A stretch of 48,044 nucleotides of DNA. Source: Streptomyces roseochromogenus subsp. oscitans DS 12.976. GTDB taxonomy: Bacteria; Actinomycetota; Actinomycetes; Streptomycetales; Streptomycetaceae. The notes under the pieces are model-generated. The model was not told the DNA's origin and ran no database searches. It saw only the letters and a program-made list of their open reading frames with translations. The stretch spans positions 358,077-406,120 of the forward strand of contig NZ_CM002285.1 in NCBI RefSeq assembly GCF_000497445.1, written 5' to 3'. Made by a program: the position numbers and the translations under genes. Shown here piece by piece: positions 4,472 to 38,367 of this stretch. Position 1 is the first letter of the stretch, and the number at the start of each line of letters is the position of its first letter.

Positions 4472-4540
4472 CACCGTACCTCCTCGGTTGTCGTCGTCTG
4501 CCGACACCTCCGGTGCAGCGCGCCCGGAGCTGTCGTACTG

Positions 4541-4575
4541 AGGCCGAACAGCCCACACCAGGGGCCTTATGTCCT
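4541..4575. promoter_or_regulatory. Candidate DosR-like tandem dyads between hsp20 and pncB
   Basis: GGGCCTTATGTCCT at 4562-4575 matches 11 of 14 positions of the core of the mycobacterial DosR box (GGGACTWWAGTCCC). A weaker copy, AGGCCGAACAGCCC, starts exactly 21 bases upstream at 4541. The pair sits about 90 bases before the hsp20 start and 65 before the pncB start. Binding by a DevR/OsdR-type regulator is inferred, not shown. Confidence 0.45.
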
Positions 4576-4640
4576 TTTTACCCACACCTGGCGCGATCAG
4601 ACTGGTAACGAGGGAACGACCACACACGGCGGCGATCACC

Positions 4641-7287: not shown

Positions 7288-7318
7288 GCCACGCGGCCGG
7301 TACGCAGTGGGCAGAGGA

Positions 7319-7381
7319 AGTCCGCTCGGCCTCACGTCAGGCCCTCTCGGCCCCGCATCAGGCCCGCTCGGCCCCTGCCCC
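7319..7381. promoter_or_regulatory. Three tandem 21-bp direct repeats with dyad cores, upstream of nitroreductase gene
   Basis: Three adjacent 21-base units begin at 7319, 7340 and 7361. Their 14-base cores are AGTCCGCTCGGCCT, GGCCCTCTCGGCCC and GGCCCGCTCGGCCC; cores 2 and 3 differ at one base, and full units agree at about 15 of 21 positions. The spacing equals two DNA turns, so bound proteins would line up on one face. They lie 120-183 bases before the nitroreductase start. I read them as operators for the regulator that acts elsewhere in the island. Confidence 0.6.
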
Positions 7382-12016: not shown

Positions 12017-12102
12017 CTCGCCACCACCTTTCACAAGGCCGCCACCTCGTGCAACGCATGGAGGTGAACTTCACCGTGGCACTCCGCCCCTGAAGCCGCG
12101 AG

Positions 12103-12137
12103 GGGCGCTTCGGCCCGCGCCGGAGGACCTTCGGCCC
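12103..12137. promoter_or_regulatory. Two phased dyads upstream of USP gene
   Basis: GGGCGCTTCGGCCC (12103-12116) and AGGACCTTCGGCCC (12124-12137) start exactly 21 bases apart and share the nine bases CTTCGGCCC. Each has the 5-4-5 layout of the DosR-like core; the second matches that core at 10 of 14 positions. They lie between the end of the hydrogenase operon and the start of the leftward USP gene, about 87-121 bases upstream of the latter. Confidence 0.5.
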
Positions 12138-12157
12138 CCTATCGAGAACCGGCGCCG

Positions 12158-12628
12158 TCAGCTCCCTTCGTACGCCTGCCGCACGCGGGCGGCAACCCGG
12201 TCGGTCAACTCGGGGAGAGCCGACCGCACCGCTTCGCTCAGGCCCGCGCCCAGTGCGACGTCGGCCACCTCGACGGCATGCACCACCAGCTTCTGCGGCA
12301 GCCGGCCGAGAGCCTCCGCCAGGGCGAGACACTCCGCCAGCCCGAAGGCATGCGTGCTCGCCGTCCCCGCTGGGTGTCCGGCCACCTCCTCCGGTGTCAG
12401 GGTGTGCAGCTCACCCGGCCGGCCCGACCGTGTACGGAGGGCTTCCACCACGACCACGGTGTCCGCACCGCGCCACAGGTCGAGCATGCGTGCGGGTTCA
12501 CCGTCGCTGACCGTCAGGACGGTGTCGTCCGGAACACGCCCCCGCAACGCCTCCACCACTGCCGGGCCGGCCCCGTCATCACCGCGCAGCGGATTGCCCA
12601 CCCCGATCACCACCACCCGGCCGCTCAT
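12158..12628 (-). CDS. Hydrogenase maturation endopeptidase (HycI/HybD family)
   Basis: The 156-residue nickel-dependent protease would trim the C-terminus of the hydrogenase large subunit after nickel insertion. It shows the family N-terminus VVVIGVGNPLRGDDGAGPAV, including the GNPLxGDDG signature whose Asp helps bind nickel, and ASTHAFGLAECLALA with the conserved His region. The ATG overlaps the stop of the large-subunit gene. It is the last gene of the hydrogenase operon. Its likely target is the tail following DPCISCSAH in the neighbouring subunit. No hypA-F genes are in the window, so those must lie elsewhere. Confidence 0.92.
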   Translation of the reverse strand: MSGRVVVIGVGNPLRGDDGAGPAVVEALRGRVPDDTVLTVSDGEPARMLDLWRGADTVVVVEALRTRSGRPGELHTLTPEEVAGHPAGTASTHAFGLAECLALAEALGRLPQKLVVHAVEVADVALGAGLSEAVRSALPELTDRVAARVRQAYEGS

Positions 12629-13971
12629 GTGCGCTCCACGGTCAGGTCGAGGAAGTGCGCGGAACAGGAGATACAGGGATCGTGATTACGGATGGCTCGT
12701 TCGCACAGGAGAGTGAGCTCCTCGTCGTCGGCGTCGGGCCCGTCCCTGTCCAGACGCGTCTGCACCGCCCTGCGTACGTCCTCCTCGATGGCCGTCTGGT
12801 TCTGGGCCGTGGGCGGGATGATGCGGGCCCCGGTGAGCGTGCCGTCCTCCGTGAGGGCGTAGCGGTGGTACAGCAGCCCCCGGGGTGCCTCTGTGGCCCC
12901 GGCGCCGACCGCCCTGCGCGGCGGGACCTCCACGGCCGGTCGGGGAGGCTGTGCGTATCCGTCGATGATCCGCAGGGCCTCTTCGACGGCATGGACCACC
13001 TCCACGGCACGTACGACGATGCTCCGGAAGGGGTTGTCGCAGATCGCGCCCAGGGCGGGGTCGCCCAGTCCCGCGTCCCGCGCCGCTTCGGCCGCCACTG
13101 GGTGCAGCCACTGGCCGTTGATCGCGTAGCGGGCCAGCGGGCCGGTCAGGAAGCGGCGGTCGTCGAGTGTGGCGGTCAGGGCCGTGGAGTGCGGGACCTG
13201 CCGTTCCCGGACGTGCTGTTCGAAATCGGAGAGGGCGAACTCGCGGGCCGCCCGGGGTCCGCCCCGGGCGGCGATGACCGCCGGTGTTCCGGAGTCGATG
13301 GCGTAGTGGCCAGGGTCGCGGAGGGCGAGCAGGTCGTGATCGTACACAGCGTCGGGGAAGTCGAACGCGGCGACCCAGCGCACGGTCTCCAGCGCGTCCT
13401 CCCGGGCCTGCCGCAGCCTTTCCGCCAGCGGACGGAGTTCCCGCGGCGCCGGGGTCCGGTAGAAGCCGCCGATCCGGACGTTGACGGGGTGGATGGGCCG
13501 ACCGCCGAGCTGTTCGAGGATCGCGTTACCGGACTGCTTGAGCCTCAGGCCGCGCTCCACGGCGGCACGTTGGTCGCGGGCGAGTCCCACCACGTCCGCA
13601 AGGCCGAGGAAGTCCGGCGCGTGCAGCAGATAGATGTGCAGGGTGTGGCTCTCGATCCATTCGCCGCAGTACAGCAGGCGCCGCAGGTCCGCGAGCGGGC
13701 CGTCCACCGTGACACCGCAGGCGTTCTCGATCGCCTGGCAGGCGCTCATCTGGTACGCGACCGGGCAGATGCCGCAGATGCGCGACGTGATGTCGGGGGG
13801 TTCGGTATGGCCCCGGCCGCTCAGGAGCGCCTCGAAGAAACGGGGCGGTTCGTAGATGCGGAGCCGTGTCTCCGCGACGGTCCCCCCGTCGACACGCAGA
13901 TGAAGGGCTGCCTCGCCTTCCACCCTGGCCAGCGCGTCGAGTCGCAGGACGCGGGTTCCGCGAGGGTTCAT
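12625..13971 (-). CDS. hyhL: Group 3b [NiFe]-hydrogenase large (alpha) subunit
   Basis: The 448-residue catalytic subunit binds the NiFe(CN)2CO site. The N-terminal motif is [16 protein letters not shown], with Cys66 and Cys69. The C-terminal motif is [10 protein letters not shown], with Cys433 and Cys436, followed after His439 by a short tail (FLDLTVERT) that the adjacent endopeptidase should remove. These four cysteines are the nickel ligands. DPCxSCxxH is typical of group 3 cytosolic hydrogenases, which couple H2 to NAD(P). The protein is cytoplasmic. Its ATG overlaps the small-subunit stop and its stop overlaps the protease ATG. Confidence 0.95.
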
Positions 13972-14846
13972 GCGGGCCTTTCCGGGTGGGTTTCCGTCGT
14001 CGCCGGCGGCCTCTCCTGCTTCTCGGCCGCGAGGTCGGGTACGGGGGCATGTTCGGGCGACGCGGCGTTGAACGTGCGGAAGACACGCTGGATGTCCTGC
14101 TCACTCATCCCGTCGTGGCGCAACTGGGCGACCATCGAGCGCAGGTTGGGCCGGCTCATGGGTCCGAAGCAGCCGTAGCAGCCGCGTCCGAAGGCGGGGC
14201 AGATGGCACCGCACCCCGCGTGCGTGACCGGGCCCAGACAGGGGATGCCGTGGGCCACGGTGATACAGGTGGTGCCGCGCCTCTTGCACTCGAAGCAGAC
14301 GCTGTGGCCGGGGACCCGGGGTCTACGCCCGGCCAGGTAGGCGGTGATGACTTCGAGGAGCTGGCGTCGGTCGATGGGACAGCCGCGCAGTTCGAGGTCG
14401 ACCGGGACATGGGCCGAGATCGGGGTGGAAGTCTCCAGCGTGGAGATGTACTCCGGGCGGGCGTAGACCGCGGCGATGAACTCGTCGACGTCCGAGAAGT
14501 TGCGCAGCGCCTGGATGCCGCCCGCGGTGGCGCAGGCTCCGATGGTCACGAGGTACCGGGAGATGCGGCGGACGTGCTGGATCCGCTCGGCGTCCTCGGC
14601 GGTGGTGATCGATCCTTCGACCAGGGAGAGGTCGTACGGCCCCCGGCCGTCCAGCCGCGCACGTTCCCCGCCGGCGCCCTCGGCCGGGGTCATCTCCAGG
14701 AAGTGCTCGATCCGTACGCGGTCGGTGAGGCCGAGCAGTTCGTCCTCACAGTCGAGCAGGGTCAGCTGGCACCCGTCGCAGGAGGCGAACTTCCACACGG
14801 CGAGCGTCGGCCGTGGGTCGGTGGCCCGTCCCGGTTCAGTGGTCAT
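13968..14846 (-). CDS. hyhS: Group 3b [NiFe]-hydrogenase small (delta) subunit
   Basis: The 292-residue electron-transfer subunit carries the proximal cluster motif [19 protein letters not shown], then [11 protein letters not shown] and [14 protein letters not shown] distal iron-sulfur set follows ([38 protein letters not shown]). There is no twin-arginine signal, in keeping with a cytosolic enzyme. About 40 extra C-terminal residues are polar and Pro/Glu-rich. It starts at an ATG 17 bases after the FAD/NAD subunit stop, with GGGAG as ribosome site. The arrangement matches Pyrococcus sulfhydrogenase and mycobacterial Hyd3. Confidence 0.94.
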
Positions 14847-14863
14847 GTCACAGCTCCCTCACG

Positions 14864-15682
14864 TCACAACTCCCGCACGAGAAGCAGCGGGGCCACGCGG
14901 TCGTAGCTGACGACCGGACCGTCGCGGCACAGCAGGAGCGGGCCGAGCTGGCAGTGGCCGCAGTGCCCGGTGGCACAGCGCATATTGCGTTCCAGGGACA
15001 CCTGCACGCGCTGCGCGACCAGACCCCGGACCAGCAGGTCGCGTGCGGTGTGCCGCATCATCACCTCGGGCCCGCACACAAGCGCGCAGGTTCGCTCGGG
15101 CCGCAGATCGAGACGGTCGAGGAGGGTGGTGACCACACCCACCGCACCGCGCCAGCCCGGCCCGGGACGGTCGACAGTCACCTCCACCCGCGCCGGGCCG
15201 CACCAGCTCTCGATCTCGTCCCGGTAGACCAGGTCCGCGGGAGTACGGGTGCCCACCAGGATCGCAAGCGAGCCGTAGTGATCCGGCCGGTCCAGGACCT
15301 CGTGCACGACCGGCCGGAGCGGGGCCAGCCCGATGCCACCGGCGATCACCAGCACATCGTGACCGGCTGCCGCCCGAAGGTCCCAGCCTGTTCCGTACGG
15401 CCCGCTGAGCCCCACGGTGTCCCCCCGGCGCAGCCGGCAGAGAGCGGTCGAGACCGCACCCACGGCGCGCACGGTGTGCACCAGCCCGCCGTGGCGTCCG
15501 CGCAGACCGCTGGCCGAGAGGGGGATCTCGCCGACCCCGAACGCGTAGATCATCGCGAACTGCCCCGGTGCGAAGGAGGGCAGTTCGCCTCCGACCGGCA
15601 CGAGTTCGATGGACCGTGTGTCGGCGGTCTCGGCCAGGGTCTCGGCCACGCGGTACGGCAGCGGGGGCGCGACAGTGCTCAT
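14864..15682 (-). CDS. hyhG: Group 3b hydrogenase FAD/NAD(P)-binding (gamma) subunit
   Basis: The 272-residue diaphorase subunit passes electrons between the hydrogenase core and NAD(P). It has a ferredoxin-reductase-type FAD barrel (about 10-100, with FAPGQFAMIYAFGVGEIP), an NAD-binding domain starting VLVIAGGIGLAPLRPVVHEV, and a C-terminal [2Fe-2S] cysteine set, CATGHCGHCQLGPLLLC. This matches HydG/HyhG of group 3b enzymes. The ATG overlaps the stop of the Fe-S subunit gene. Choice between NAD and NADP cannot be made from the visible residues. Confidence 0.93.
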   Translation of the reverse strand: MSTVAPPLPYRVAETLAETADTRSIELVPVGGELPSFAPGQFAMIYAFGVGEIPLSASGLRGRHGGLVHTVRAVGAVSTALCRLRRGDTVGLSGPYGTGWDLRAAAGHDVLVIAGGIGLAPLRPVVHEVLDRPDHYGSLAILVGTRTPADLVYRDEIESWCGPARVEVTVDRPGPGWRGAVGVVTTLLDRLDLRPERTCALVCGPEVMMRHTARDLLVRGLVAQRVQVSLERNMRCATGHCGHCQLGPLLLCRDGPVVSYDRVAPLLLVREL

Positions 15683-16878
15683 GGCGTGCCGTCTCCGCCC
15701 GCCGGGTCCGGTTCCGGTGAGCCGGTGGAGGCAGCCCAATCGTGCAGAGCGGCGGCTTCCTCGGTGATGTCGATGCCGACCGGGCACCACACGATGCAAC
15801 GGCCGCAGCCCACACAGCCGGACGAGCCGAACTGGTCGTACCAGGTGCCGAGTTTGTGGGTCATCCACTGCCGGTAGCGACTGCGCGAGGAGGCGCGGAC
15901 CGGGCCGCCGTGGAGATGGGAGAAGTCCAGGTCGAAGCACGAGTCCCACAGCCGCCACCGCTCCGCGTGGTCGCCGGTGAGGTCGGTGACGTCCTCGGTG
16001 GTGGTGCAGAAGCAGGTGGGGCAGACCATGGTGCAGTTTCCGCAGGTCAGACACCGTCCGGCGACATCGTCCCAGCGGGGCGCGTCGAGCGTTCCGGCCA
16101 TCAGTTCCCTGAGGTCCGCTTCGGGCATGGTCCGTCCCATGCGGTCCGCGGCCGCGGTAACGCCTGCGCGAGCCGCCTCCTGGGTCTGCGGGTCGGCGGG
16201 GCGGCCTGGCAGCTCGGCCAGGATCTCGGCGCCCTCCTGGCTGCCGCCGCGGATCCAGAAGCGGTGCCCGTCGTCATCGGCCACTTCGGTCATCACCAGG
16301 TCGTAGCCGGGGCCGGCGGCGGGGCCGGTGTTCATCGAGACGCAGAAGCAGGTGGCACCGGGTTCCGTGCATTCGACCGCGATCAGCAAGGCCCCGGAGC
16401 GTCGCCCGTCGTAGCCGGGGTCGCGGTGCGCCCCACCGGTCAGGACCCGGTCCTGGACGGCGATGGCCCGCAGATCGCAGGGACGCACGCCCAGGAACGC
16501 GTACCGAGGAGGCGGCGCCTGGTCCGCCTCGAAGACCAACTGGCCCTCCACCCGGTCGGCGCTCCACTCCCGCACCCTCGACGGATGCAGGAAGGACTTC
16601 CAGGACTGGGGACCCGCCGCGTTGGCGAAGGCCGCGCCGTCGGACCGCTCGCGCAGCCGGTACCGCCCGGCCTCCAGCTCCACGCCCCATCCGTACGGCA
16701 GCTCGTCAGCCGACCCCAGTTCCGCCAGCACGATGGCACCGTCGCGGACCGTGGGCCCGATCACGGTGAACCCGCGTCCGATCAGCACGTCCACGAGCGC
16801 GGCCATGCCGTCCTTGCCCATCACGAGCCCGTCGGTCCCGGCGGGCGCGGAGGCGTTCACATCGGCGTCGGTGCTCAT
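15679..16878 (-). CDS. hyhB: Group 3b hydrogenase iron-sulfur (beta) subunit
   Basis: The 399-residue protein carries two [4Fe-4S] ferredoxin motifs, CLTCGNCTMVCPTCFC and CVGCGRCIVWCPVGIDI, that wire the diaphorase to the hydrogenase core. The N-terminal two-thirds match the HyhB/HydB family: FLGVRPCDLRAIAVQDRVL and GATCFCVSMNTGPA are typical blocks. It is the first gene of the five-gene operon. The ATG at 16878 is chosen because the protein before it is not conserved. Its ribosome site is poor (AGGGGA at 12 bases), and two further in-frame ATGs lie within the 21-bp repeats upstream. Confidence 0.93.
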   Translation of the reverse strand: MSTDADVNASAPAGTDGLVMGKDGMAALVDVLIGRGFTVIGPTVRDGAIVLAELGSADELPYGWGVELEAGRYRLRERSDGAAFANAAGPQSWKSFLHPSRVREWSADRVEGQLVFEADQAPPPRYAFLGVRPCDLRAIAVQDRVLTGGAHRDPGYDGRRSGALLIAVECTEPGATCFCVSMNTGPAAGPGYDLVMTEVADDDGHRFWIRGGSQEGAEILAELPGRPADPQTQEAARAGVTAAADRMGRTMPEADLRELMAGTLDAPRWDDVAGRCLTCGNCTMVCPTCFCTTTEDVTDLTGDHAERWRLWDSCFDLDFSHLHGGPVRASSRSRYRQWMTHKLGTWYDQFGSSGCVGCGRCIVWCPVGIDITEEAAALHDWAASTGSPEPDPAGGDGTP

Positions 16879-16907
16879 GACCGCAGCATTTCCCCTGCGA
16901 TGGGACG

Positions 16908-16970
16908 TCGATAGAGCCATGCGGGTAGTCGATGGAGCCATGCGGGCAGGGGACTGGTCCGTTCGTCCCG
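16908..16970. promoter_or_regulatory. Three phased 21-bp units upstream of the hydrogenase operon
   Basis: Two 21-base direct repeats at 16908-16928 and 16929-16949 agree at 19 of 21 positions. Their cores are GAGCCATGCGGGTA (16914) and GAGCCATGCGGGCA (16935). A third dyad, GGTCCGTTCGTCCC (16956-16969), sits exactly 21 bases further on; read on the reverse strand it is GGGACGAACGGACC, matching 10 of 14 positions of the DosR-box core. The array lies 36-92 bases upstream of the first hydrogenase gene and is read as its operator. Confidence 0.6.
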
Positions 16971-16990: not shown

Positions 16991-17620
16991 TCAGCACGCT
17001 CGCCGCTGTGGGAAGACGAGGTAGGTACGGCCCTCGCGTCCCCACTCCCCGTACTCGGGGATCAGACCGGCGTCCATCGCCCGCAGACAGGGGCGGCCGA
17101 TGTGCGCGTAGACCAGGCGCCCGATCCGGTGCCGTACCGCTTCCGGGCCGATGTCCCGCACGGGGGCGTGCCCGCCCACTCCTCCGCGGAAGCGGATGGG
17201 GCGGTCCCAGCCCGAGGCTTCCGCGAACATCAGGTCCGCGTCCGCCGCCCAGGCCGGGAAGGCCCAGAACTCAGGAGCCCACACCACCGCCGCCGCCCCT
17301 GCCTCGATCCGGTAACCGCAGGTCGGATGCGAGGTGTGCGCGACCGGATGCGCGCGGACCCGCAGCTCGCCGAGGTCCGCGTCCGCCATGCGGGGCACCA
17401 GCCCGCGCTCCGCGGCGAGGTGACGCAGGGCGGAGCGGAGTTCGGCATGCTCGTCGGTGACGAGCCAGGCGTCCACCCGGCCCTCGGGCGGCTCCGCGCC
17501 GGGACCGCCGTCGAAGACGACGCGATGGCGGCCGTGGACGACCAGCAGGCCGGCCGGTGCGAAGCGCGGCGACGCCATGGCGCCCACGCCCAGCAGCGTG
17601 AGTCGTAGCCGCGGCGCCAT
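16991..17620 (-). CDS. Degenerate metallo-beta-lactamase-fold protein
   Basis: The 209-residue protein begins [20 protein letters not shown], the first strand of MBL-fold hydrolases, and retains [29 protein letters not shown] and [18 protein letters not shown] in family order. The central metal motif HxHxDH is replaced by [10 protein letters not shown], so metal binding and hydrolysis are doubtful. The start ATG has a GGGAGG site. It lies 112 bases upstream of the hydrogenase operon in the same direction and may be read through into it, although the phased dyads between them suggest a separate promoter. Function is unknown. Confidence 0.75.
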
Positions 17621-17660: not shown

Positions 17661-17716
17661 CCGCGCCGTGGCCGCGTACCTGAGCCGTCCGGCCGCGTAC
17701 GAAGGCCGTTCGACCC
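17661..17716. promoter_or_regulatory. Three phased dyads upstream of the acs-pdh operon
   Basis: Cores start at 17661 (CCGCGCCGTGGCCG), 17682 (GAGCCGTCCGGCCG) and 17703 (AGGCCGTTCGACCC), each exactly 21 bases apart. The first two share the ten bases GGCCGCGTAC (17670 and 17691). The third matches the DosR-like core at 9 of 14. The array ends 61 bases before the start of the acetyl-CoA synthetase gene. Its match to the consensus is weaker than at the nitroreductase or hydrogenase promoters; the phase is the main evidence. Confidence 0.48.
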
Positions 17717-17777
17717 AGTGCGGCCGGGGCAGCAGGGGCGGATGGTCGAAGCAGGCCCGGAGGAAGGAGGGTCCGGC

Positions 17778-27144: not shown

Positions 27145-27795
27145 TCAGCCATCCGTGCGCCATTCGATGCGGCCGGCGACCGAGACGACGCCGTCGACGC
27201 CACGGCACAGCTGTTCGATGACGGGGATCAGGCTCCTGTACTCCACGGTTCCGCCGAGAGTGACCCGTCCGTCGCGCACCTCGACCGTCACGTCCCTCGG
27301 ATCGAGCCCCAAGGTGCGCCGCAGCACGTCCCCGGTGATCTCCTCGCGGATGGCGTCGTCGCGGCGCAGGAAGACCCGCAGCAGATCGCCGCGGCTGACG
27401 ATGCCCAGGAGCCGGTCCGCCTCGTCCACCACGGGCAGCCGCTTGACGTTCTGGGTCTCCATGAGACGGGCGGCCTCGACCACACTCCACTCCGGACGCG
27501 CGCATACGGCGGGAGCCGACATGAGTTCCTCGGCACGGGAACCCTCGGCCTTGGCCCGCTCCCACGCCTCCAGGTTCGGCATGGGGGTCCTGCCCGACGG
27601 GTCGGCCTGATCGGCGCTCTTGCGCAGCAGATCGGCCTCGGACACCACCCCCATGGGGCGGTCCAGATCGTCCACGACGGGCACGGCGGTGACGTCGTTC
27701 TCCGCCAGCAGCCTGACGAGTTCCTTGAACGGCGTGTCGCGCCGCGCCCGGACGACGTCCCGGGTCATGAGCTCCTCGACCGTTCGGTGGTGCAT
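27145..27795 (-). CDS. CBS-domain pair fused to BON domain
   Basis: The 216-residue protein has two CBS domains (about 8-60, VEELMTRDVVRARRDTPFKE, and 90-145, LMSAPAVCARPEWSVVEAA) followed by a BON domain (about 150-214, DPRDVTVEVRDGRVTLGGTV). CBS pairs sense adenine nucleotides, and BON domains often contact membranes or phospholipids. The ATG at 27795 has GGGAGG four bases upstream and is preferred over an upstream in-frame start. Such CBS-BON proteins are common in streptomycete stress islands; the function is unknown. Confidence 0.9.
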   Translation of the reverse strand: MHHRTVEELMTRDVVRARRDTPFKELVRLLAENDVTAVPVVDDLDRPMGVVSEADLLRKSADQADPSGRTPMPNLEAWERAKAEGSRAEELMSAPAVCARPEWSVVEAARLMETQNVKRLPVVDEADRLLGIVSRGDLLRVFLRRDDAIREEITGDVLRRTLGLDPRDVTVEVRDGRVTLGGTVEYRSLIPVIEQLCRGVDGVVSVAGRIEWRTDG

Positions 27796-27833
27796 GGTGC
27801 CTCCCGGATGCGGGCCGTCCACCTCGCGGATTC

Positions 27834-27847
27834 AGGGCTCACGCCCC
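27834..27847. promoter_or_regulatory. Candidate dyad between CBS-BON and DUF1918-HTH genes
   Basis: AGGGCTCACGCCCC contains perfect arms GGGC and GCCC around four bases and matches the DosR-like core at 9 of 14. It sits between two divergent genes, 39 bases from one start and 67 from the other. A nearby GTCCC half-site at 27862 is not in 21-base phase. Confidence 0.35.
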
Positions 27848-27913
27848 CCATGCGGCGGTATGTCCCGCGTGGCAGGTTGGATACAGCACCATTCTGAGGA
27901 GAGGACGGCGATC

Positions 27914-28834
27914 ATGCGAGCGCACCTCGGCGACCAGCTCGTCATCGAGAGTCCGACGACCGGCGCCGCCAGGCGCGACGGCGAGATCGTCGGCCTTCAC
28001 CACCAGGACGGAACACCTCCCTACGACGTGCGCTGGTCGGACACGGACGAGGTCACCCTCGTATTCCCCGGGCCCGACGCACACATCCGCCACCTTGAGC
28101 AGGCAGAGCCCAGGACCACGGGCGAGCCACAACCGGACGCGGGCGAGGAGCAGATCGTGTCCGTGGTCGCCCCGCCCACCGAGGCGGCCAGCCCTGGCGA
28201 CATCGGACGGCGCGTGGCCGTCGAGCGCCGGAGACTCGGGCTCAGCAGGGAGGAGACAGCCGGCCGCGCCCGGATGTCGCCCGGCTACCTCGCGTACCTG
28301 GAGGAACGGCCCGCGGACCCGACCATGGCGACTCTCATCAGGCTGGCCGACGCACTGGGCACCTCGGCCACCGCCCTGCGCGGCGGCGGCATCGACCTCC
28401 CACCGGGCCAGGGACACGCACTGCTCCACCCTCGGCTGCGGGATCTCAGCCCGGAGGAATGCCGCGCCCTGCTCTCGACGCACGGCGTGGGGCGCGTCGC
28501 GGTGTCGGACTCCGACGGGCGCCCGGCGGTCGTCCCGGTCAATTACGAGGTCGTCGACGACGCGATCGCCTTCCGGACCGCGCCCGGCTCCGTGACCGCG
28601 GCGGCCGCGGGCAAGGAGGTCGCCTTCGAGGTCGACCATGTGGACGATGCCTTGAGCCAGGGCTGGAGCGTGCTCGCCGTCGGCCCCGCGAGCGTCGTGA
28701 CGGAACCCGACGCGGTACGCAGGCTCACCCAGCATGCCCACACCGCGCCGTGGGCGGGCGGTGAGCGCGAGATGTGGGTGTCGATCCGGCCCATGAGCCT
28801 CACGGGCCGTCGCATCACTTCGGCCGGGCAGTAG
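27914..28834 (+). CDS. Three-domain fusion: DUF1918 - XRE helix-turn-helix - pyridoxamine-oxidase-like flavin barrel
   Basis: The 306-residue protein has an N-terminal DUF1918 (about 1-58: VIESPTTGAARRDGEIVGLH, YDVRWSDTDEVTLVFPGPDA). A Pro-rich linker leads to an XRE helix-turn-helix (about 96-155: RRLGLSREETAGRARMSPGY then LADALGTS). A split-barrel FMN/F420-binding domain follows (about 172-300: HGVGRVAVSDSDGRPAVVPV). The layout suggests a DNA-binding protein that senses a flavin or deazaflavin redox state. The ATG is preceded by GAGGAGAGGA. It is divergent from the CBS-BON gene with a dyad between them. Redox sensing is an inference from domains. Confidence 0.85.
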   Translation: MRAHLGDQLVIESPTTGAARRDGEIVGLHHQDGTPPYDVRWSDTDEVTLVFPGPDAHIRHLEQAEPRTTGEPQPDAGEEQIVSVVAPPTEAASPGDIGRRVAVERRRLGLSREETAGRARMSPGYLAYLEERPADPTMATLIRLADALGTSATALRGGGIDLPPGQGHALLHPRLRDLSPEECRALLSTHGVGRVAVSDSDGRPAVVPVNYEVVDDAIAFRTAPGSVTAAAAGKEVAFEVDHVDDALSQGWSVLAVGPASVVTEPDAVRRLTQHAHTAPWAGGEREMWVSIRPMSLTGRRITSAGQ

Positions 28835-32318: not shown

Positions 32319-32729
32319 CTACGACAACCCACATGCCCCCTTGTGGTCGCTGGTCGAGCCGTTGCCACCAGAGCCAGGGCCGAAGCTGGTGGCGGGCCGG
32401 CCTCGGGGTGCCGGACCGGCAGGCCCCGCGCCATCACCCGGCTGCAGCAGCGGCAGTTCGCCCAATTCGGCGGGGACGACCTTGACCGCGGCGCCCTCCT
32501 GGACGAACCTCACCCGGCCGTCACCGACCTCGTACACCAGGCACCGGTTGACCCGGTAGGTGCCGCCCTTCGCCTCCACCCAGGGCAGCATGCGCAGCAG
32601 CCACCGTGAGCTGATGCCCTGCATCTGTGGCACGGTCTTGGTGATGGTCGCCAGGTTGCGGGCGGCGGCGATCCCGAGACTGAGCTGCGCCCGGGCCGCT
32701 GCGTGGTCGGGCTGCTCCGGTTGCGACAT
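32319..32729 (-). pseudogene. Truncated family 2B encapsulin shell protein
   Basis: The first 95 or so residues carry [39 protein letters not shown] and [20 protein letters not shown], then [11 protein letters not shown]. This is the conserved N-terminus of family 2B encapsulins, nanocompartment shell proteins that also carry a cyclic-nucleotide-binding domain. Homology then breaks off into a Gly/Pro/Ser-rich tail of about 40 residues that stops next to the GH65 gene. Normal length is over 400 residues, so the HK97 shell fold and the nucleotide domain are missing. The start and ribosome site (AAGGGACCAGG) are intact, so a short peptide could still be made. Confidence 0.72.
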
Positions 32730-37692: not shown

Positions 37693-38367
37693 GTGATCCG
37701 GGTCATGGTGGTCGACGACGAGGCGCTGGTGCGCTCCGGCTTCAAGCTCGTCCTGAGCGCGGCCGACGACATCGAGGTCGTCGCGACCACGGCCGGCGCG
37801 GCTGCGGTCGACACCGTACGGCGGAAAGGTCCCGACGTCGTGCTCCTCGACATCCGGATGCCCGACGTGGATGGGCTGACCGTGCTGCGGCAGTTGCGCG
37901 CCCTGCCGGAACCGCCGGTGGTGGCGATGCTGACGACCTTCGACGCCGACGAGTACATCCTCACCGCGCTGCGCTCCGGCGCGGCCGGGTTCCTGCTCAA
38001 GGACACCGAGCCCGACCAGCTCGCCCAGCTCGTTCGCACCCTGGCCGCGGGCGGGGTCGTGATGTCACCGAAGGCGTCCCGCGCCGTCTGGCAGAGTCAC
38101 CCCGGTGCGGAGGTCGTCGACGACGAGGAGGCCACCCGCGTCGGCCGGCTCACCGAGCGCGAGCGCGAGGTGCTCGTGCTGATCGCGCAGGGGCTGTCCA
38201 ACGCCGAGATCGGTACGCGGATCCATCTCAGCGCGGGCACCGTCAAGGATCACGTCAGCGCGATCCTGACCAAGCTGCGGGTCGGCAGCAGAGTGCAGGC
38301 GGCGCTGCTCGCGCAGCGGGCGGGACTGCTCGACGAGGGACAGCGGCGCCCGGAGTCCGGGCGATGA
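37693..38367 (+). CDS. NarL/FixJ-family response regulator
   Basis: The 224-residue regulator has a receiver domain (1-118) with Asp8-Asp9 and phospho-acceptor Asp53 in DVVLLDIRMPDVDG, the switch Thr in LTTFDADEY and FLLKDTEP. A LuxR-type helix-turn-helix follows (about 150-215: LTEREREVLVLIAQGLSNAE, then LSAGTVKDHVSAILTKL). The GTG at 37693 follows GAGGCGGGA; an ATG at 37705 is also possible. A six-base repeat (GACATC three times, 37624-37641) lies just upstream. Its stop overlaps the kinase ATG. It is a generic NarL-type regulator; nothing ties it specifically to the dormancy island. Confidence 0.93.
   Translation: MIRVMVVDDEALVRSGFKLVLSAADDIEVVATTAGAAAVDTVRRKGPDVVLLDIRMPDVDGLTVLRQLRALPEPPVVAMLTTFDADEYILTALRSGAAGFLLKDTEPDQLAQLVRTLAAGGVVMSPKASRAVWQSHPGAEVVDDEEATRVGRLTEREREVLVLIAQGLSNAEIGTRIHLSAGTVKDHVSAILTKLRVGSRVQAALLAQRAGLLDEGQRRPESGR

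Follow-up and report, generated by a model that had tools for sequence, protein, structure and literature searches.

Background

The closest described counterparts of the control region analysed here are the DevR/DosR promoters of Mycobacterium tuberculosis and the OsdR (SCO0204) regulon of Streptomyces coelicolor. The DosR box has the consensus GGGACTWWAGTCCC. In the passages of the mycobacterial reports drawn on here, DevR binds a strong site and, cooperatively, a weak site next to it, the proximal site overlapping the -35 region (PMC3029386, PMC5360333), and a passage on M. smegmatis counts Hyh among the members of the dos regulon (PMC8125079). OsdR sites have been listed as single boxes over a cut-off (PMC5069765), and the words 'spacing', 'tandem', 'distance' and 'hydrogenase' are absent from the main text of that paper. 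No title in the open-licence literature dealt with OsdR and hydrogenase, nor with Streptomyces group 3b hydrogenase and hypoxia, and a search of the same literature gave no report of tandem DosR sites at 21 bp, a spacing rule that the original M. tuberculosis promoter studies may describe. Leaderless mRNAs are common in Streptomyces, at 22.2% in S. avermitilis according to the cited part of PMC8780764.

Here we analysed 48,044 nucleotides of DNA from Streptomyces roseochromogenus subsp. oscitans DS 12.976 (the window, C1:358077-406120 of the 9.78-Mb genome), in which a first-pass annotation had pointed to operator-like repeats upstream of a hydrogenase operon. We find that the hyhB promoter carries a real and lineage-specific duplication and that it is probably a promoter of the OsdR type, not a row of three equal operators.

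Results

The hydrogenase operon, its neighbourhood and the DevR-like regulators

Pfam and NCBIfam models place on the minus strand of the window (12158..16878) a single operon of four hydrogenase subunits and their maturation protease, in the order beta-like Fe-S subunit (hyhB), gamma-like FAD/NAD subunit, small subunit, large subunit and HycI-type protease, the gene of the latter ending at 12158. The best NCBIfam models are mostly those of hydrogenase/sulfhydrogenase 1 and 2 subunits, all under cut-off, and we take the operon to be of the Hyh type, a group 3b [NiFe] hydrogenase. Upstream of hyhB lies a gap of 112 bp, whose other flank is a metallo-hydrolase-like ORF on the same strand (17806-16991, with a Lactamase_B_2 match under cut-off). 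Genes for acetate-CoA ligase and pyruvate dehydrogenase run the opposite way from about 17.8 kb, a start inferred from the onset of the family match. To the left of the operon we found Usp, CBS, nitroreductase-family, NAPRTase and ATP-synthase-like genes, and this left-hand island recalls the osdR island of S. coelicolor as it is described in the cited part of PMC5069765.

Two further features of the window are recorded in their own right. An ORF at 27620-28834 on the plus strand matches DUF1918, a helix-turn-helix domain and pyridoxamine-phosphate oxidase, and could be either a fusion or two genes that share a frame. The sole Rfam match, at 32368-32693 on the plus strand, is to Sernc350 (RF02735, 92.3 bits), a Saccharopolyspora antisense sRNA family.

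The genome encodes a DevR-like regulator 5.3 kb to the left of the window (C1:352026-352730, or L140:13950-14657), whose best solved relative is M. tuberculosis DevR (3c3w, E = 9.2e-73). A second one, 91% identical to it, lies near the other end of the contig (C1:9137301-9137990), with GAF-domain matches about 4 kb away, and 24 further regions of the genome are related to OsdR at E <= 1e-30. A response regulator is also encoded within the window (37705-38367) but was rejected as a DevR, its best solved relatives being NarL and VraR, with DevR fifth.

A tandem duplication next to a single OsdR-type box

The 112-bp gap holds three 14-base cores, at 16914-16927 (GAGCCATGCGGGTA), 16935-16948 (GAGCCATGCGGGCA) and 16956-16969 (GGTCCGTTCGTCCC), and their starts at 16914, 16935 and 16956 bear out the first-pass claim of three cores exactly 21 bp apart upstream of the operon, with steps of 21 and 21 bp. 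The first two cores belong to a tandem duplication of 2 x 21 bp (16907..16948), which lies on the minus strand like hyhB downstream of it. The identity of 19/21 that had been reported for the two repeats was obtained again on recomputation; it holds when the register begins at 16907 or 16908, another register giving 18/21. When the gap was dinucleotide-shuffled 4000 times, no tandem repeat of period 16-30 reached 90% identity, and 680 kb of Streptomyces background from this and other genomes, counted with masked runs and simple repeats excluded, contained nine comparable repeats of period 20-23, five of them of period 21. The tandem repeat and its 21-bp spacing are therefore real and not due to chance. 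When the whole genome was searched with an 18-base pattern of the repeated unit, the two copies of the repeat were the only matches free of mismatches and the next best had two mismatches, and a genome-wide set of operators resembling the unit was rejected as a result.

Whether the three cores are operators of one kind was addressed with a symmetrised scoring matrix built from the 25 distinct OsdR sites in Table 1 of PMC5069765, which, according to the cited part of that paper, its authors predicted themselves, some being then tested by EMSA. The third core was the one said to resemble a DosR box on the other strand at 10 of 14 positions, and our count by hand against the consensus given above agrees. 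It corresponds to a 16-nt palindromic box of the OsdR consensus at 16955-16970 (minus strand, CGGGACGAACGGACCA; predicted centre about -81.5), whose score of 9.97 is below that of every published site with the same matrix (11.5-18.8). Sites scoring at least 9 occur in the background about 6 times per 48 kb, so that about 0.014 would be expected in 112 bp. The metallo-hydrolase-like ORF itself contains a second OsdR-box-like site (17019-17034, score 12.0), at a distance of 64 bp from the hyh box.

The repeated units behave differently from the third. Copy A (16934..16949, minus strand, CTGCCCGCATGGCTCC) is 21 bp from the box with a predicted centre of about -60.5, and copy B (16913..16928, minus strand, CTACCCGCATGGCTCT) overlaps the predicted -35 region with a predicted centre of about -39.5. 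Their scores of -9.1 and -13.3, respectively, do not make either an OsdR box by sequence, and each agrees with the OsdR consensus at 8 of 16 bases, a level that 7% of random background 16-mers also reach. The description of the region as three operator units is thus sustained for the third unit, which matches the OsdR/DevR operator, and fails for the two repeats, so the three units are really one box and a duplicated degenerate site, called here the slot.

One slot and a distal box in the close relatives

We compared the region with its counterparts in an alignment of 21 loci, reduced to 17 distinct close relatives by removing three that repeated others and L073, a 71% relative; boxes, slots and -10 hexamers were chosen by eye from the alignment and then measured with a script. 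The slot unit was found once in each of 12 of the 17 relatives and could not be placed in the other five (L013, L091, L093, L097 and L100), and the two-copy repeat was seen in none of the 17. A near-full-length match to the gap region was obtained only in the genome itself, among 150 and 394 genomes searched at the DNA level, a search that diverged promoters would escape. A -10-like hexamer follows the slot at 35 bp in 11 of the 12 slot-bearing relatives and at 36 bp in L096. Copy B of the window also sits 35 bp upstream of its -10-like hexamer, in the place of the relatives' slot, from which it follows that the window differs from them by one 21-bp tandem duplication of slot and spacer.

Both a distal OsdR-like box and a slot could be placed in seven relatives (L009, L010, L090, L094, L095, L096 and L099), at distances of 21, 21, 21, 22, 23, 23 and 24 bp, while the box of the window is 21 bp from copy A and 42 bp from copy B. 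Conservation upstream of orthologous hyh operons, which the first-pass annotation expected of the repeat, consequently extends to the box-plus-slot layout in part of the close clade and not to the duplication, and the range of 21-24 bp does not sustain an exact 21-bp spacing. In the remaining five slot-bearing relatives (L011, L012, L014, L098 and L102) a distal box could not be placed. Among these, the slot is itself an OsdR box in L011 (score 9.7) and L012 (18.1); it scores 4.6 in both L014 and L102, each of which has a box of 16.5 farther upstream, and the eight slots that remain among the 12 score between -9.9 and 1.9 (the latter in L098). With an OsdR box at the same position in L011 and L012, the slot is probably a degenerate promoter-proximal OsdR site, duplicated in phase in the window. 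The pattern, drawn from few genomes, suggests that the OsdR slot decayed where the distal box is good. The conservation of the slot may instead reflect another regulator or the core promoter.

OsdR-type boxes upstream of hyhB in a wider sample

The best score reached at least 10 in 34 of 88 hyhB upstream regions (the window included) and stayed under 10 in 54, compared with 2.0% of 5000 length-matched pieces drawn at random from the background, whose intergenic content was not matched to that of the upstream regions; OsdR-type control of hyh would thus be common, and not universal, in this sample. The 88 regions comprise L009-L068, L073, L077, L090-L118 and the window, less four identical regions, and some of them may be the same species reached by two routes. 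In this count the best site of the window is that at 17019-17034 and not the hyh box at 16955-16970. The set leaves out L069-L072, L074-L076 and L078-L088, nine of which were examined separately with a strict pattern of eight fixed bases. With that pattern, 9 of 15 distant hyhB upstream regions contained a full match, and three of these nine had a partner matching at 7 of 8 bases at 19-22 bp. Mycobacterial hyhB upstream regions contained a strict box in two of six cases and a 21-bp partner in none of the six.

The -10 region and the missing leader

The -10-like hexamer of the window, GGAAAT followed by GCTGCGGTC (16888..16893, minus strand), has a similar sequence in the same place in the relatives; it is weak, and a simple sigma-70 promoter scan found no promoter here. 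Only 9 nt (16879..16887) separate this hexamer from the hyhB ATG (16878-16876). In 13 relatives the corresponding interval is 52-75 nt and includes a Shine-Dalgarno sequence, the 75-nt value of L099 having been measured to codon 3 and being therefore 6 nt too long. No Shine-Dalgarno sequence at normal spacing precedes the hyhB ATG of the window, where the nearest purine run seen by eye, AGGGGA, ends 12 nt before it, whereas the relatives have sites like GAAGGAGG. The window hence seems to have lost most of the leader that its relatives carry. In L096 the motif GGTCATG occurs just after the -10 and again at the start codon, flanking the segment that is absent in the window, and recombination between the two copies would probably have given the sequence of the window. 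Judged only by the position of the -10-like hexamer, the predicted transcription start coincides with the ATG or lies no more than about 3 nt from it, and hyhB would be leaderless.

Pairing of boxes at two helical turns across the islands

The first-pass annotation had also described the promoter as part of an island-wide 21-bp pattern, and this is supported. Requiring one box scoring at least 8 and a partner scoring at least 2, we counted 13 pairs at lags of 19-24 bp in 168 kb around the window against 12 for the 42 lags left between 12 and 59, and none at 19-24 bp in 280 kb elsewhere in the genome. We then used 20 hyh islands (L158-L177; 396,590 bases), hand-picked from 75 other genomes with a match, and thresholds of 9 and 2. 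They contained 34 pairs at lags of 19-23 bp, with a peak of 15 at 21 bp, compared with one in 400 kb of background. In this count, as in that around the window, adjacent registers of one pair may both be included, and the islands are related, so that pairs are not independent. None of 200 permuted palindromic matrices reached 34 pairs (mean 3.7, maximum 32, the latter perhaps from a column order near the real one). Lags 20 and 22 are raised and lags 18 and 24 hardly so, which means that codon periodicity does not explain the peak at 21 bp. Single sites scoring at least 10 are also more numerous in the islands than in the background (77 against 22); such a surplus raises pairs at all lags and is allowed for by the permuted matrices and by the other lags. 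Boxes paired at about two helical turns are thus found in the island of this genome and in 20 others, and this pairing at about 21 bp is a stronger result than the duplication at hyhB.

A smaller peak was observed in the same 20 islands at 29-32 bp, about three helical turns, with 12 pairs compared with 26 over the other 49 lags between 12 and 69; one of 200 permuted matrices reached 12 at these lags (mean 2.95).

Within the window, several pairs are easier to recognise than the hyhB element, and the promoter cannot be called the clearest single instance of the pattern, as had been proposed, given the matrix pairs at 4540/4561, 7339/7360 and 12102/12123. The promoter of the nitroreductase-family gene has an array (7318..7375) of three boxes at 7318, 7339 and 7360, scoring 4.4, 6.8 and 10.7 and exactly 21 bp apart, which is partly an 18/21 tandem repeat and is a clearer three-unit example than the hyhB promoter. 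The Usp ORF (12034-11141, minus strand) is preceded by a pair spaced 21 bp whose boxes score 9.0 and 10.2 (12102..12138), and another such pair (4540..4576; scores 9.6 and 7.4) lies where the NAPRTase ORF begins (4569). A further 21-bp pair at 17681..17717 (4.5 and 9.3), which also falls inside the opposite ORF 17806-16991, precedes the conserved part of the acetate-CoA ligase ORF, whose start is inferred, by about 100 bp. When upstream regions of nitroreductase genes were collected (30 loci minus L207, which had no upstream sequence, and L215), a site scoring at least 8 with a partner at 19-23 bp was present in 7 of 28 with the window included, that is in 6 of 27 others; the nitroreductase promoter of the closest relative, L206, had no scored partner. 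Recent 21-bp tandem duplication was rejected as a general mechanism, with one such repeat in the 396,590 bases of the islands against five in the 680,000 bases of background: since 21-bp repeats are not enriched in islands, the pairing is general and recent duplication is not.

Discussion

The reading that we favour, with a confidence slightly above even, is that of a lineage-specific hyh promoter dependent on OsdR/DevR in which the slot was duplicated in tandem and the leader deleted, making hyhB leaderless. In the ground plan seen in several relatives, a weak slot would overlap the -35 region, 35 bp from a weak -10, and an OsdR-like box would stand 21-24 bp farther upstream. Under low oxygen, OsdR~P would bind the good box at 16955, occupy the weak slots A and B, each a further two turns along, by cooperative binding and thereby touch RNA polymerase at the weak promoter of hyhB. 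In the lineage of the window the weak slot and its spacer would have been duplicated by exactly 21 bp, and because this is two helical turns the sites would stay in phase as the good box shifts from about -60 to about -81. A separate deletion, probably between two GGTCATG repeats, would have removed about 60 nt of the 5' UTR, so that the predicted start falls on the ATG or at most about 3 nt from it and hyhB would lack a leader.

Neutral slippage, which we consider unlikely, would leave only the 16955 box and copy B with a role and make copy A an inert spacer that pushed the box two turns upstream. This would agree with a duplication found in none of the 17 close relatives and matched at near full length in this genome only (among 150 and 394 genomes), with the poor quality of copies A and B as OsdR boxes and with the frequency of 21-bp repeats in the 20 islands, which is not increased (1/396,590 against 5/680,000 bases). 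It leaves aside, however, that the length of the repeat is precisely the pairing distance preferred in the islands, 21 bp, and that the same window has a second exact three-unit array with this step at 7318-7375.

We give still less credit to the proposal that the repeated unit is the operator of another regulator acting beside OsdR, such as the NarL-family protein at 37705-38367. That the unit TGCCCRYRTGGCTCT is common to several species yet scores poorly with the OsdR matrix would speak for it, as would the 24 further OsdR-related regions of the genome (E <= 1e-30). The slot nevertheless reads as an OsdR box in L011 and L012 (9.7 and 18.1) and, less clearly, in L014 and L102 (4.6 and 4.6), and because nothing else in the genome matches the 18-base unit with fewer than two mismatches, no wider set of operators is apparent for it. 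That the 21-bp unit supplies seven codons to a HyhB lengthened at its N-terminus, with the ATG at 16941 as start (MAPSTTR-MALSTSH...), is very improbable. In favour of it, the repeat is in frame with hyhB, 61 codons are open upstream of 16878, each copy has an ATG, and of 14 relatives tested seven likewise have an open frame of at least 46 codons. Against it, each of the seven others has an in-frame stop between slot and start, at most 13 codons upstream of the latter, which makes a coding repeat unlikely; the relatives have their Shine-Dalgarno directly before the codon equivalent to 16878, and no purine-rich ribosome site precedes 16941.

Returning to the OsdR-dependent promoter with a duplicated slot, its wider version is more tentative. 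According to it, streptomycete OsdR would follow a helical-phase rule, with 16-bp boxes, often one strong and one degenerate, placed head-to-tail two turns apart (19-23 bp, with the peak at 21) and less often three turns apart (29-32 bp), to which duplications can add slots, the hyh promoter of the window being a leaderless three-slot switch. A pairing rule of about 21 bp would allow weak functional partner sites to be called by position, could help to explain bound genes that have no consensus box and links hydrogen metabolism in streptomycetes to the hypoxia switch. If the reading is true, duplication of the slot and excision of the 5' UTR made hyh a leaderless three-slot hypoxia switch, and 21-bp duplications can add weak slots with the phase kept. 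The natural duplication also offers a ready comparison of a two-slot with a three-slot promoter between related species.

With the OsdR regulon of S. coelicolor, as presented in the cited part of PMC5069765, the island shares the box family AGGGCCGATCGGCCCT, a DevR-like regulator near stress genes and targets such as Usp and nitroreductase genes; it is unlike it in that single sites were scored there (PMC5069765), whereas here the pairing distance and a duplicated weak hyh slot stand out. The parallel with the DevR/DosR promoters of M. tuberculosis lies in a strong site with an adjacent weak one and a proximal site over the -35 region, as the cited passages of PMC3029386 and PMC5360333 have it, the difference being that the slots predicted here from sequence are degenerate and that the element duplicated is the proximal slot and not the strong box. 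The DosR-controlled Hyh of M. smegmatis, in the passage that names it (PMC8125079), would be the same kind of hydrogenase under a DevR-type regulator as is predicted here, while mycobacterial hyhB upstream regions differ in having a strict box in 2/6 and a 21-bp partner in 0/6. Like the leaderless mRNAs of Streptomyces described in the cited part of PMC8780764, the predicted hyhB transcript would start at or next to the ATG, with no Shine-Dalgarno at the normal distance, and it would differ from them in a leader seemingly lost by deletion in this lineage. The control system is of a known kind, but its layout is unusual.
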